Origin: Glutamicibacter soli
Lineage (GTDB): Bacteria > Actinomycetota > Actinomycetes > Actinomycetales > Micrococcaceae
Direction: 5' to 3'
NCBI RefSeq assembly: GCF_003309065.1
Contig: NZ_POAF01000012.1
Coordinates: 1-49,862, forward strand
DNA length: 49,862 nt
The number at the start of each line of letters is the position of its first letter. The stretch's first letter is position 1. Of this stretch, positions 27,302-32,865 are shown one piece after another. Made by a program: the position numbers and the translations under genes. Below the pieces are notes generated by a model. It was not told the origin of the DNA and did not search any database. It saw nothing but the letters and a program-made list of their open reading frames with translations.

Positions 27302-28507
27302 CTAGGTGTACAGCGAGAGCGGCTGCGATTCGCCGCGCAGGAAGTAGGCGCCGACCTCGATCTTCTTGTAGTCCACCGGGTCGTGCAGCGAGTGCGTGCG
27401 CACGTTGCGCCAGAACAGGTCAAGCCCGACGTCGCTCTTGGTGGAGGAGGATCCGGTGACCTCGAAGATGCGGTTGGCGACGTCCACGCCGGCCTCGCTG
27501 GCCACGACCTTCAGCTCCGCGATCGCCACCGCCAACTCGGCGCGCTGCGGCTGGCTGACTGCCCCGCCCAGCACCTGATCGAAGCGGCGGCCCAGCTTCT
27601 CCGCCAGCGCGGCCACCGCGGCAGTGCGGGCCTTCAGCTCCCCCACGGTGCGCTGGAAGACGACGTCCTGCGAATAGGTTTCGGCCTGCGAGAGGAACCA
27701 GGCGTTGGTGCGCCCCAGCAGGATCTGCCGGCCCCGCGCCAGCGCGCCCTCCGCGATGCCCAGGTAGAAGTTCGCGAAGGCCAGCTGGATGCCCGGGGTG
27801 AGCAGGGTGGCCACCGGCTCGTCGGTGACCGGGCCCAGCACGTCGGACGGCTCGATGCGCACGTTGCGGTACACCAGCGAGTTCGAGGCGCTCAGCCGCT
27901 GGCCCAGATAGTCCCAGTCGTCGACGATGCGCAGTCCTTCGGCCTCGCGCGGGACCACGAAGGCCAGCAGCTCGCCGCTGCCTTCGACCTCCGCGTTGAC
28001 GACGATGACCTCGCCCACCCCGGAGCCGGTGGAGAAGCGCTTGGCCCCGTTCAGCCGGTAGCCATCGCCCTCGCGGGTCAGCACCAGGTTCGGGTCCACC
28101 GGGTTGACCGAGTCGCCCCACAGCCAGCTTCCCTCCACGGTGCGCCGCCACCAGTCGGCCTGCGCCTCGGCCGGGGCGTAGAAGGCGATGCCCGACTGGT
28201 TGATGTAGTGGTAGGCCAGCAGCTGGGAGATCGACCCGTCGGCGGCGGCCAGGATGCGGATGACCTCGAAGGCAGTCTCGAAGTGCCCGCCGGCGCCGCC
28301 GAACTCGGCCGGGACCAGCAGCTCCAGCAACCCTGCCTCGCGCAGCAGCTGCACCTCGGCGAAGGGCTGCTTGTTGGCGCGGTCGCGGGCCAGCGCGTCG
28401 GCGGCCAGGGTGCCGGCAACCTGGCGGGCGACGGCGCGCCAGCGCTCCAGTTCGGCCTCGCTGGCGGTGCCGGTGTACGGGACGCGGGGCAATGCGGTGA
28501 CGGTCAT
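27302..28507 (-). CDS. DszC-like flavin-dependent monooxygenase (sulfur acquisition)
   Basis: A 401-residue protein of the acyl-CoA dehydrogenase fold. Features are LVPAEFGGAGGHFETAFEVIR, the flavin-binding GAKRFSTGSG, and the C-terminal DLFWRNVRTHSLHDPVDYK, highly typical of dibenzothiophene monooxygenase (DszC) and SfnC relatives. It likely oxidises a sulfone, sulfonate or thiophene-type compound to release usable sulfur; the substrate is unknown. A SAM-I riboswitch lies directly upstream and AAGGAG precedes the ATG, so expression should rise when methionine/SAM is low. It is the first gene of a two-gene operon. Confidence 0.9.
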   Translation of the reverse strand: MTVTALPRVPYTGTASEAELERWRAVARQVAGTLAADALARDRANKQPFAEVQLLREAGLLELLVPAEFGGAGGHFETAFEVIRILAAADGSISQLLAYHYINQSGIAFYAPAEAQADWWRRTVEGSWLWGDSVNPVDPNLVLTREGDGYRLNGAKRFSTGSGVGEVIVVNAEVEGSGELLAFVVPREAEGLRIVDDWDYLGQRLSASNSLVYRNVRIEPSDVLGPVTDEPVATLLTPGIQLAFANFYLGIAEGALARGRQILLGRTNAWFLSQAETYSQDVVFQRTVGELKARTAAVAALAEKLGRRFDQVLGGAVSQPQRAELAVAIAELKVVASEAGVDVANRIFEVTGSSSTKSDVGLDLFWRNVRTHSLHDPVDYKKIEVGAYFLRGESQPLSLYT

Positions 28508-28561
28508 GATCGGGCTCCTTGGAATTGGACTTCCGAGGGATACCGGGACGCGGCCCGGGCT

Positions 28562-28646
28562 CCATCGAACCTGGCGTTAGCACTCCCTGCGGATTACAGG
28601 CTTGCTGCGGCGTCGCGGAGCCAGGTCTCTCAGCCGCTCTGGATGG
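28562..28646 (-). ncRNA. SAM-I (S-box) riboswitch
   Basis: On the minus strand the sequence has the S-box core in order: P1 strand CCATC, ATCCAGAGCGGCTGAGAGA, CTGGCTC, the GACGCCGCAGCAA segment, then GTGCTAACGCCAG and the closing GATGG. P1 pairs CCATC (28646-28642) with GATGG (28566-28562). This matches the known SAM-I aptamer consensus (AGAGxGGxxGAGGGA, GGCAACC, GGTGCTAAxTCC). A short CCGGG/CCCGG hairpin and the ribosome site follow, with no T-run, which suggests control of translation. It governs the two sulfur oxidoreductase genes. Confidence 0.87.
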
Positions 28647-28841
28647 TGTGCACCGATTCAAGCACGCCGCCGAAGCCTGAGGGAACCGCCCCGTCACGCG
28701 GCGGAACGCACCGCAAAACTGCGTCATATTGGGAGTTTGGAACCCGCGCCGGGCCCAGATCGCGAAGGCGCGCGGCAGCATCCAGCCGTCGCACGACGTC
28801 ATATTGGCGCACGCAGTGCCCGGGCCCGGCGGGCCTTGCTG

Positions 28842-30959: not shown

Positions 30960-32036
30960 CTATGGAGATTCCTCCACAAGTCCTATAGGCCGAAGCCCAT
31001 ACTTCAGCTGCTTCGAATACTGGAATATGTGCATTTCGCCCAGCCGGACCCGGGCGTAGATGGAGCTGAGCAAGGCCATCAGCTCGCCGGGAACCCGCGG
31101 GTCGCTGCCGGTGACCTGCTTGATCCGGTCCATTCGTTGGATCAGCGTATTGCGGTGGACCGTGAGCCTTGCGATGGCTTCGGACTGCGTCGAACTGGCG
31201 GCCAGCGCCAGCAGCGTGAACGCATGCTCCGCACTGATCTGGGCCGTGCGCCGGGCCAGCGAACGGCAGTACGCTTCCGGTGCTCTGGCCGCCGACAGCG
31301 CCATGTCCTCGTTCCAGAGCTCGCGAAGTCCGGCAGCCGGAACCAGCGCGGGCACCGCGCCCAGGGTCCGCAGGTTCTCGGCGTCGACCAGAAGGTCGCT
31401 GGGCTGTGTCCGAGGGGGCCCGAGGATCGCGCGGGCAGAAGCAGGATCCTCGATTGGACCGGAGGACAGCACCCATCGGGCATTGTTAATCGTCAATGCT
31501 GCTTCGTACTGCTCAGGCCCGTCCTCGTCGAGCAGCAGGCTCAGCGACCATGGCGCGCTCAAGCCCAGCTGCTCGAGCTGCTCAGCCAAGGCTTCGTCGC
31601 TCGCGGATCCCGACACAAGTCCGGAGAGCATGTCACTAATCTGGGTGGCGCGCACCGTGCTTCGGACATGCTCCTCGTGCTGGGTAAGCAGCAGCTGCAC
31701 GGTCAGCGAAATCAGCTGGGCCAGCGACGCAACCTCCTGCGGTGCCCCTGTCACCCCCACGACACCCTGCACGACGCCGTCCGCATAAAGTGGCACGTTG
31801 ACGCCCGGCAGCTGCCCGGACACCGGGTCGGCCTGGGCGGTGACAATTGTGCGGTTCTCCGACAGGGCCCTGAGCGCATCCGGATGCGGGTTCCCCAACC
31901 GTTTAGGGTCGGACGAAGCGATGATGATCCCGCGCTCGTCCATGATGTTCAGCGGGTAGTCGACGCGCGGGGCGATGGTTTGGACAACACGCAGCGCCAC
32001 CGTGTGGGTGAGTTTTCCTGTTGCCTTCTGCGCCAT
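30960..32036 (-). CDS. CdaR-type sugar diacid regulator
   Basis: A 358-residue protein with an N-terminal diacid-recognition domain (YPLNIMDERGIIIASSDPKRLG) and a C-terminal PucR/CdaR helix-turn-helix region (TLLALAASSTQSEAIARLTVHRNTLIQRMDRIKQVTG). It senses glycerate, glucarate or galactarate and activates catabolic genes, here probably the glycerate kinase 9 bp downstream. The start is uncertain: ATG codons at 32036, 32057 and 32096 are in frame. 32036 fits the domain edge, although no ribosome site precedes it; a TAGACT 7 bp before it could be the -10 of a leaderless mRNA. Confidence 0.88.
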   Translation of the reverse strand: MAQKATGKLTHTVALRVVQTIAPRVDYPLNIMDERGIIIASSDPKRLGNPHPDALRALSENRTIVTAQADPVSGQLPGVNVPLYADGVVQGVVGVTGAPQEVASLAQLISLTVQLLLTQHEEHVRSTVRATQISDMLSGLVSGSASDEALAEQLEQLGLSAPWSLSLLLDEDGPEQYEAALTINNARWVLSSGPIEDPASARAILGPPRTQPSDLLVDAENLRTLGAVPALVPAAGLRELWNEDMALSAARAPEAYCRSLARRTAQISAEHAFTLLALAASSTQSEAIARLTVHRNTLIQRMDRIKQVTGSDPRVPGELMALLSSIYARVRLGEMHIFQYSKQLKYGLRPIGLVEESP

Positions 32037-32130
32037 GCTTGGTAGTCTACCCACCATCTGACCACGCGTCTTTTGACAACGTGGAGGCTGAGCCAAGCTT
32101 CTGCACAGAGTCGGGCAGTAATGTCGTAGA

Positions 32131-32193
32131 CACCTCCTTGAGGTGCGAGTGATGATCGTAAACTCCCGCCGGCTTCAGCCGGCGGGAGTTTTC
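32131..32193 (+). ncRNA. Putative small RNA, array unit 1
   Basis: CACCTC-CTT-GAGGTG forms a 5' hairpin (32131-32145) that overlaps the shared core. A perfect 13-bp terminator stem with TTCA loop (32161-32190) and T-run ends the unit. A TTGACA lies at 32073-32078 but the -10 is unclear; AGTAAT at 32117-32122 has the spacing to the core seen in units 2 and 4. The 5' end is therefore approximate. Confidence 0.65.
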
Positions 32194-32285
32194 ACTTTCC
32201 TGCGTCCCATGGCTGATGCAGACTCTTTGCCTGCGCCGGGCTCGGGCAAAGCCGAGGCATAGCCTTGCTCCCTAAAATGGAAGTT

Positions 32286-32356
32286 ACCTTCCTCAAAGGT
32301 GCGAGTGATGATGTAAGTCTGGCTCCGTTGCGCACGGCAACGGAGCCAGTATTTTT
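32286..32356 (+). ncRNA. Putative small RNA, array unit 2
   Basis: A good -10, TAAAAT, lies at 32273-32278, giving a start a few bases before the ACCTT/AAGGT hairpin (32286-32300). The core lacks the C that follows it in the other units and reads on into ATG TAA, so any peptide from the core ATG would be two residues. A perfect 13-bp terminator stem (32319-32349) is followed by TATTTTT. Confidence 0.7.
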
Positions 32357-32445
32357 AAGAAACCTTCGAGCGCCGCATCACCGATGCGCCGGCATTCTCC
32401 AGATGGTGTCCAGGCCCGGCATAGGAACCGGAAGTGCAGTGAAGG

Positions 32446-32508
32446 TAACTCAAAAGGTGCGAGTGATGATCGAGAACCCTCCAACGAAATGATTTCGGTG
32501 GGGGTTTT
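32446..32508 (+). ncRNA. Putative small RNA, array unit 3
   Basis: The core is at 32455-32470. The terminator (32475-32504) has a bulge and one mismatch with a TGA loop, then TTTT. The 5' hairpin is not conserved and no good -10 is seen, so this may be the weakest member. A core-start peptide would be only eight to eleven residues. Confidence 0.6.
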
Positions 32509-32608
32509 GAGTTTAACGTCCGGCCAGCTGCGTGGACACCGCAGAAATGCTTAGCTAGCGGCTCGGAATTCCAAAGCTCCGGCACAGGGTGCATTCCTAG
32601 AATTGAAG

Positions 32609-32678
32609 TACCTCATAAAGGTGCGAGTGATGATCGTGAAGTTCCCGTTGGATTTCCTCCCAACGGGAACTTTTCTTT
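32609..32678 (+). ncRNA. Putative small RNA, array unit 4
   Basis: TAGAAT (32598-32603) is a strong -10, five of six positions. Transcription would begin at about 32609-32611, just before ACCT-CATAA-AGGT and the core. A perfect 13-bp stem (32639-32651 with 32660-32672) and TTCTTT terminate it. The predicted RNA is about 70 nt. Its tail overlaps the stop of the convergent small gene by two bases. Confidence 0.7.
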
Positions 32679-32865
32679 AACCGCCCTGGCCTTCGATATG
32701 CCAGCCTTTGCACTGTTCGCATGCGTAGGTGCCCAGCTGCTTGCCAGCTACCGTGGAATGCCTCAGCGCGGCCTTGAGTGCGATCGCGTTAGTGCGGTAC
32801 CGCTGCTTCCCCGCGGCTTCACAGATATTGATGGTGCGTTTGGTGGGATCCTTCAATATGGCCAT
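32677..32865 (-). CDS. Small conserved hypothetical protein with CxxC and WH motif
   Basis: A 62-residue basic protein ending in TYACEQCKGWHIEG. The pattern Y-x-C-x2-C-x2-WH recurs in small actinobacterial proteins of unknown role and suggests a half zinc site or nucleic-acid contact. The start ATG at 32865 has no ribosome site, but TAGATT lies just upstream as a possible -10, so the mRNA may be leaderless. It is convergent with the small RNA array and divergent from the SulP gene. Confidence 0.7.
   Translation of the reverse strand: MAILKDPTKRTINICEAAGKQRYRTNAIALKAALRHSTVAGKQLGTYACEQCKGWHIEGQGG

Follow-up and report, generated by a model that had tools for sequence, protein, structure and literature searches.

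The window, i.e., the whole stretch of DNA analyzed here (49,862 nucleotides of a Glutamicibacter soli contig), carries an array of four short and similar units on the + strand. The 16-nt sequence AGGTGCGAGTGATGAT is present in four exact copies, at 32141, 32297, 32455, and 32619, with spacings of 156, 158, and 164 bp. These are the positions and the 156-164 bp spacing given in an earlier reading of the letters alone (the sequence-only reading). With up to three mismatches allowed the window has five matches, where 0.28 would be expected, and five were reached in 0 of 100 shuffles. The neighbors of the array are two genes on the − strand, one with the open frame 30960-32096 and the other small and convergent (32677-32865). 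A covariance model of the hairpin and core found the four units in the window and no other match below an E-value of 1. The predicted elements are as follows.

32093-32124, +: unit 1 promoter, CCAAG-N6-CACAG (two 11-bp repeats), N10, −10 TAATGT (32119-32124); family matrix score 29.0
32131-32197, +: unit 1 predicted sRNA of about 67 nt, hairpin CACCUC-CUU-GAGGUG, core 32141-32156, terminator stem; z −7.3, 37.8 bits
32247-32278, +: unit 2 promoter, CAAAG-N6-CATAG, N10, −10 TAAAAT (32273-32278); family profile
32286-32356, +: unit 2 predicted sRNA, hairpin ACCUU-CCUCA-AAGGU, core 32297-32312, terminator; z −4.2, 31.2 bits
32409-32440, +: unit 3 promoter, TCCAG-N6-CATAG, N10, weak −10 TGCAGT (32435-32440); matrix score 16.6
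32444-32514, +: unit 3 predicted sRNA, degenerate, 5′ hairpin broken (AACT), core 32455-32470, weaker terminator stem; z −1.8, 24.6 bits
32572-32603, +: unit 4 promoter, CAAAG-N6-CACAG, N10, −10 TAGAAT (32598-32603); matrix score 23.3
32608-32678, +: unit 4 predicted sRNA, hairpin GUACCU-CAUAA-AGGUGC, core 32619-32634, terminator stem; z −5.2, 48.7 bits

The predicted RNAs are 67-71 nt long (the ends were chosen by us), with a 5′ hairpin followed by a single-stranded stretch and a terminator stem. The z values above compare the folding of each RNA with that of shuffles; units 1, 2, and 4 are far better, and unit 3, for which 15/200 shuffles fold equally well, is not clearly better. The 5′ ACCT/AGGT hairpin, which the sequence-only reading had described as sequestering part of the core in three copies, was found in units 1, 2, and 4 and is broken in unit 3. 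The same reading had given every copy an intrinsic terminator of its own. This holds in part: unit 2 was the only one of the four to score in a strict scan that required a T run, units 1 and 4 have clear terminator stems and shorter T runs, and in unit 3 the stem is weaker. The good −10 boxes that had been seen in units 2 and 4 (TAAAAT and TAGAAT) lie at the position typical of the family, TAATGT of unit 1 also fits the TANNNT pattern found there, and TGCAGT of unit 3 is weak. The convergent gene next to unit 4 (32677-32865, −) encodes a 62-aa protein with a CxxC pair (MAILKDPTKRT...), and the predicted end of the unit 4 RNA overlaps its stop codon.

The genome has seven such units in total, the other three being located on contigs C20, C24, and C19. 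A 15-mer of the core (at most one mismatch) was found in 266/395 genomes of the Micrococcaceae and in 31 of 32 genera, compared with 19/395 for the reversed pattern (counted from the listing), which excludes that the units are absent from related genomes, a finding that the earlier reading would have counted against itself. The other 17 Glutamicibacter genomes have 4-9 core matches each. When 30 loci from this search were fetched, 25 had the unit anatomy by eye and five did not (L019, L020, L023, L028, and L037), so the count of 266 genomes includes some chance or coding matches. The search of actinobacterial genomes with a covariance model, also proposed from the sequence alone, matched (hairpin and core, E ≤ 0.001) 25/396 genomes in the order, every one of them from the Micrococcaceae. 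That listing held 35 members of the family, of which ten were missed under strict filters, and more distant relatives could thus be missed too. A scan of GTDB contigs with ACCT-N2-8-AGGTGCGAGTGATGA returned at least 116 stretches; the matches listed are mostly from Micrococcaceae (Arthrobacter, Glutamicibacter, Paeniglutamicibacter, Micrococcus, Kocuria, Citricoccus, Zhihengliuella, Zafaria, Tersicoccus, Auritidibacter, Rothia, and others), and a G. protophormiae record (L144) has the same four-unit array. Six matches outside the family (two Acidobacteriaceae, two Rhizobium, one Campylobacterales, and one Saprospiraceae) were without unit anatomy by eye and were removed. This left 164 of 170 collected units, which were thinned at 80% identity to a set of 111; second copies in tandem cores were skipped.

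A few records stand apart from this distribution. A record of Vibrio cholerae strain 35D (L126) contains an Arthrobacter-type unit and is probably a mislabeled or contaminated assembly. The hairpin-core pattern also matches two IMG/VR contigs (L497, L498) and two Rhizobium records (L096, L111), the Rhizobium matches being without the anatomy by eye. In genus g10 (L008-L036) the RNA occurs in a longer form whose 3′ half is conserved (GGCGGGCATGGGGATGTCCGCC...), and some loci have two different tandem units; Rfam gave no match to this long variant in the loci scanned.

The sequence-only reading knew of no named family that fits, and we found none either. A search of the window and 26 further loci (two from the same genome) against Rfam 15 (4227 families) at the gathering threshold placed no family on the units. 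The matches at threshold in the searched DNA were a SAM and a SAM-IV riboswitch, both away from the units. At E-values up to 10 (901 bases), 13 weak matches appeared, all below threshold and mutually inconsistent, and these were discarded. In the literature covered, which leaves out most subscription papers, a query with the core letters returned unrelated papers alone, and searches on Micrococcaceae genera and sRNAs found no such family among the papers listed. We are confident that the units are a multicopy, dispersed sRNA family of the Micrococcaceae that is new to the libraries and literature searched. In the window itself, a SAM riboswitch (RF00162, 50 bits) is located at 28559-28649 (−), just upstream of an acyl-CoA-dehydrogenase-like frame (27302-28507, −; named by eye).

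Across the 111 units the invariant stretch is GGTGCGAGTGATGA, with its final A kept in 109/111. The next base 3′ is T in 37, C in 26, G in 25, and A in 23 units, i.e., the core has a sharp boundary. The 5′ arm of the hairpin was partly selected for, as the pattern scan demanded ACCT; the position outside the ACCT was unselected and is a C or T opposite G in 110/111 units. The loop is 3-7 nt and the stem is kept. Stem changes are one-sided in every case and double compensation is absent, as expected because one arm is the frozen core; the hairpin is thus supported, not proven. The DNA downstream of the core folds at a mean of −30.9 kcal/mol, versus −20.6 kcal/mol for control windows, and is below the 5% quantile of the controls in 43/111 units. 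At least four T within 10 nt were found at the stem end in 55/111. The predicted RNAs are 55-94 nt long, with a median of 73 nt. Six Micrococcus and Citricoccus units (L046, L100, L116 twice, L136, and L140) have the core twice in tandem, head to tail. The reading of the units as sibling sRNAs with a shared core and variable 3′ parts, which had been made from four copies, is supported here as the best one: the units recur family-wide, are mostly intergenic (5/111 lie inside a predicted gene), match no Rfam family, and keep no consistent reading frame. The common promoter pattern and the probable targets described below were not part of that reading.

A TANNNT motif lies 12-14 nt before the hairpin arm in 109/111 units. 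Aligned on this −10, the profile has C-N-C-A-G at −15, −26, and −37 and AG again at −45, a period of 11 bp, and a normal −35 is absent. With one mismatch allowed per box, at least two of the three CNCAG boxes are present in 101/111 units and all three in 40/111, the box profile having been derived from the same units; at positions slid by 3-5 bases, at least two boxes were counted in 3/666 cases. With zero mismatches at least two boxes are found in just 20/111 units, and no unit of the window has an exact three-box fit. Exact boxes are thus rarer unit by unit than the profile suggests, which slightly lowers our overall confidence. The units of the window have two boxes each, some of them mismatched (CCAAG/CACAG, CAAAG/CATAG, TCCAG/CATAG, and CAAAG/CACAG for units 1-4). 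Searches of the genome for these promoters were mostly noise (triple repeat, 34 matches versus 14 in the control; double repeat, 39 versus 29), and they nonetheless uncovered the seventh unit and the phoP site described below. A promoter matrix matched units in 202/211 cases, most of the loci searched having been fetched as unit-bearing. The pstS locus and two rpf-type loci of the genome have no promoter of the sRNA type (best scores 2.2-3.0). A sigma-factor-like gene (ECF type by eye; L161, G000:C11:681237) has a promoter that scores 17.2 with the sRNA promoter matrix.

Direct repeats such as these are typical of sites for OmpR-family regulators. M. tuberculosis PhoP is reported to bind direct repeats of TCACAGC whose spacer is strictly 4 bp (TCACAGC-N4-TCACAGC), which can be extended to trimers and tetramers (PMC4832192). 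The mycobacterial MtrA repeats are given as GTCACAgcg, 9 nt with 2 nt spacing (PMC6265350, PMC13189361), and the Corynebacterium glutamicum PhoR site as an 8-bp tandem repeat with a 3-bp linker (PMC3353115). The unit repeats have exactly the 11-bp period of the M. tuberculosis PhoP site and share CNCAG with it; of the TCACAGC letters, the first T is unconserved in the units and the last C is unconserved in the box adjoining the −10.

The phoP orthologue of this genome is itself directly preceded by a triple repeat, CCCAG-N6-TACAG-N6-CCCAG. The gene product matches M. tuberculosis PhoP at 293 bits, the next different regulator in the PDB scoring 181, and exactly one match at E ≤ 1e−80 was found in each of 61/61 genomes sampled. 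Among the best 30 of these 61 genomes by score, the repeat lies 79-80 nt before the VVDDE codons in 25/30 phoP loci and scores above all 50 shuffles in 25/30; in three of the 30 the score of the reverse strand is nearly equal or higher. The upstream score in our genome (18.6) is higher than that of all 627 gene upstreams in an 800-kb sample (maximum 14.1), and the distance from repeat to −10 looks equal to that of the sRNA promoters by eye. Given this footprint, its score, and the matching spacing, the simplest reading is that PhoP regulates its own gene and also controls the sRNAs. We consider control of the units by PhoP probable from these sites.

The core also has complements elsewhere in the genome. 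With at most two mismatches, complements were found in 27 places, seven of which are the units, versus four for the reversed control. The best site outside the units, a 14-mer without mismatches, is located in the leader of a gene of the MerR type (Pfam MerR_1). The core match at C24:40151, without hairpin or terminator, had been put down as a chance core and is this complement site. Another MerR-like gene and a DUF151-like gene precede the gene; the group is similar to M. tuberculosis Rv1828-Rv1830, and by gene order the MerR-type regulator gene resembles mycobacterial ResR/McdR. A complement of at least 7 nt is at the expected place in 7/30 orthologues, with 12-14 nt in the three of three loci from the genus and 7-9 nt at a similar position in four more, where one 7-mer is no better than shuffles; it is absent in the other 23. 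The predicted duplex of the core with a 110-nt stretch of the MerR leader has an energy of −27.4 kcal/mol, better than that of all 682 leaders of the genome (65-nt stretches).

A scan of mRNAs for core complements near start codons, as had been suggested from the array, was positive in this genome and not in samples of three others. The site CACTCGCA lies within −60 to 0 of the start in 5/682 predicted genes (850 kb of the genome), and reverse-oriented sites within 60 nt upstream are present in 0 of the 682. Permutations of its letters (n = 840) have a mean of 0.62, and two reach five, CACTCGCA itself among them. The five genes encode an NMT1-type substrate-binding lipoprotein, an ammonium transporter, a sodium:alanine symporter, a phosphonate-type binding protein, and an NfeD protein. 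A looser count of the start context gave 10 versus a permutation mean of 4.1, which is marginal as 73/840 permutations are as high. In 400-kb samples of two other genera there were 2/290 (47/840 permutations as high) and 0/289 genes, and in 400 kb of a second Glutamicibacter genome (G254) the looser count was 1 versus a mean of 1.7, i.e., no excess. Genes near the units have target sites in 0/195 (Glutamicibacter loci) and 0/391 cases (others). The targets may differ by genus, or the core may have a second, older function.

A search for the site followed by GGA and ATG in 18 Glutamicibacter genomes gave 250 matches versus 53 for the reversed control and was above the control in 18/18; as the control has no start context and the 250 include antisense matches to units and sites counted twice, the true excess is smaller. 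Our genome has 16 of the matches; 11 were identified at predicted starts, six of them in genes for transport components. One of the remaining matches is the antisense of unit 2, and two are inside genes (one by eye, one in a response-regulator match). Fifteen leaders from other genomes, picked by eye, include nine of transport components (for two of these the name comes from likeness instead of Pfam) and two of phosphatase-type exported proteins. The site persists despite a diverged leader in the genes for a PF04392 lipoprotein, an NlpA-type lipoprotein, and the alanine symporter. Duplex energies of foreign BioY and SBP_bac_5 leaders are unremarkable, with 26 and 20 of the 682 own leaders equally good. 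On balance we lean toward the transporter and MerR-type regulator mRNAs as the likely targets of the core in Glutamicibacter, judging by complementarity. The alanine symporter (L374:7012, L308) has, in addition to the core-complement site in its leader, a weak PhoP-like box (11.2, ~99th percentile), and possibly forms a mixed feed-forward loop.

Other explanations of the units were weighed against this. The hairpin and terminator architecture, together with a same-strand gene within 450 nt downstream in 33/111 units, would also suit cis-acting attenuators or riboswitch-like leaders. We consider this very unlikely, as the gene arrangement contradicts it for most units: 49/111 face a convergent gene, 29/111 have no gene start within 450 nt, and unit 4 of the window runs into its convergent neighbor; riboswitch families likewise matched none of the units. 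A conserved micropeptide, for which AGGTG...GTGATG in the core would be the ribosome site followed by the start codon it resembles, is hardly credible. The frame of the core ATG is of inconsistent length, with a stop within eight codons in 20/111 units and no stop through the 100 nt examined in 56/111, and the base after GATGA is random; a conserved peptide, which the sequence-only reading had named as evidence that would tell against sRNAs, was therefore not found at the core ATG. Both readings were dropped for these reasons. Less easily set aside, and in our view a minority possibility, is that the units are sRNAs whose core binds a protein or another RNA as a sponge or decoy, the complements in transporter leaders being coincidental. 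The core is conserved far beyond the genus with enriched target sites, those sites were not enriched in the two other genera sampled, and the doubled core of the six Micrococcus and Citricoccus units is as in a multi-site sponge. Against coincidence, the leader complements of our genome are over-represented and oriented, as seen in the absence of reverse sites and in the looser count (10 vs. 4), they are functionally coherent, and the site is kept in three genes whose leaders have diverged.

For the activator, the alternative is another regulator of the OmpR family, which we regard as rather unlikely. A second PhoP-like regulator (L221, G000:C22:282185-282835, −) has a similar CNCAG box upstream that scores 17.3 and is still a candidate. 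MtrA was our first idea, and direct repeats are reported for it (see above); the upstream region of the mtrA orthologue scores 7.9 (one genome), and this low score and the phoP footprint in 25/30 loci weakened the idea.

We thus favor, as likely, a reading of the units as PhoP-activated sibling sRNAs of about 70 nt that pair with nutrient-uptake mRNAs in a csRNA/LhrC-like manner. A PhoP-type response regulator of the OmpR family would bind two to four direct repeats that resemble CNCAG and have a period of 11 bp, which would stand in for the −35 element, and activate transcription. Each RNA would then consist of a 5′ hairpin (ACCUC/AGGUG), the invariant core GGUGCGAGUGAUGA with a single-stranded 3′ part, and a private terminator stem. 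The core would be the seed, and in Glutamicibacter it may pair with (AU)CACUCGCA before the start in transporter mRNAs (substrate-binding lipoproteins, the ammonium transporter, and the alanine symporter) and with the perfect 14-nt site in the leader of the conserved MerR-type regulator gene. Pairing would most likely block translation, a guess drawn from sites that lie ahead of the start. One environmental sensor probably activates all four units of the array, and their RNAs may jointly tune the nutrient importers of the cell. The family, the promoter pattern, the phoP footprint, and the complementary sites are present in the sequences; that the units are transcribed, that PhoP binds, that the core pairs, and in which direction it regulates is inferred.

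A broader version, in which PhoP drives several redundant sibling RNAs and their invariant 14-nt core, as a general seed for nutrient uptake, represses many transporter mRNAs and the MerR-type regulator gene, is tentative, and we hold it to be doubtful. One two-component sensor would then act at the RNA level on uptake and on a growth regulator alike. If the reading favored above is true, the family ties the conserved PhoP sensor system to nutrient uptake through RNA, and there would be a reason why Micrococcaceae retain many near-redundant small RNA genes. To our knowledge, base-pairing sRNA networks in actinobacteria are poorly known. The units may offer an experimentally tractable network in soil bacteria: the seed is fixed, one genome has seven natural copies, the candidate activator is named and its site predicted, and the candidate target leaders, which contain exact pairing sites, form a short list.

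The likeness to multicopy sibling sRNAs under one response regulator is put forward as one of kind, not of homology. The features of this kind that are present are several similar units per genome with a common core, and shared promoter repeats. CiaR of Streptococcus pneumoniae is an OmpR-type regulator, the LhrC1-5 genes of Listeria monocytogenes lie in tandem, and Mcr7 of Mycobacterium tuberculosis is single copy. The csRNAs of the CiaRH regulon are described as five highly similar sRNAs under one response regulator and differ from the units in phylum, regulator, and target (comC; PMC4507080). Mcr7 is reported as a PhoP-dependent actinobacterial sRNA for which pairing with the 5′ end of an mRNA is predicted; it is described as ~350 nt long and confined to the M. 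tuberculosis complex, whereas the units are ~70 nt, multicopy, and found in Micrococcaceae (PMC4038636). The LhrC1-5 sRNAs of the LisR regulon are multicopy and reported to be induced via one response regulator (PMC5880928). They are from another phylum and have another core sequence. The targets of the GcvB sRNA are mostly nutrient-transporter mRNAs, as proposed for the units; GcvB is single copy and Hfq-dependent, and its seed is not that of the units. The 6C RNA and other actinobacterial sRNAs have C-rich loops. They differ from the units in that no Rfam family reached threshold on the units searched, and they are alike in that 39/111 units have a C-rich unpaired stretch. It lies in the main stem-loop and is a possible second seed.
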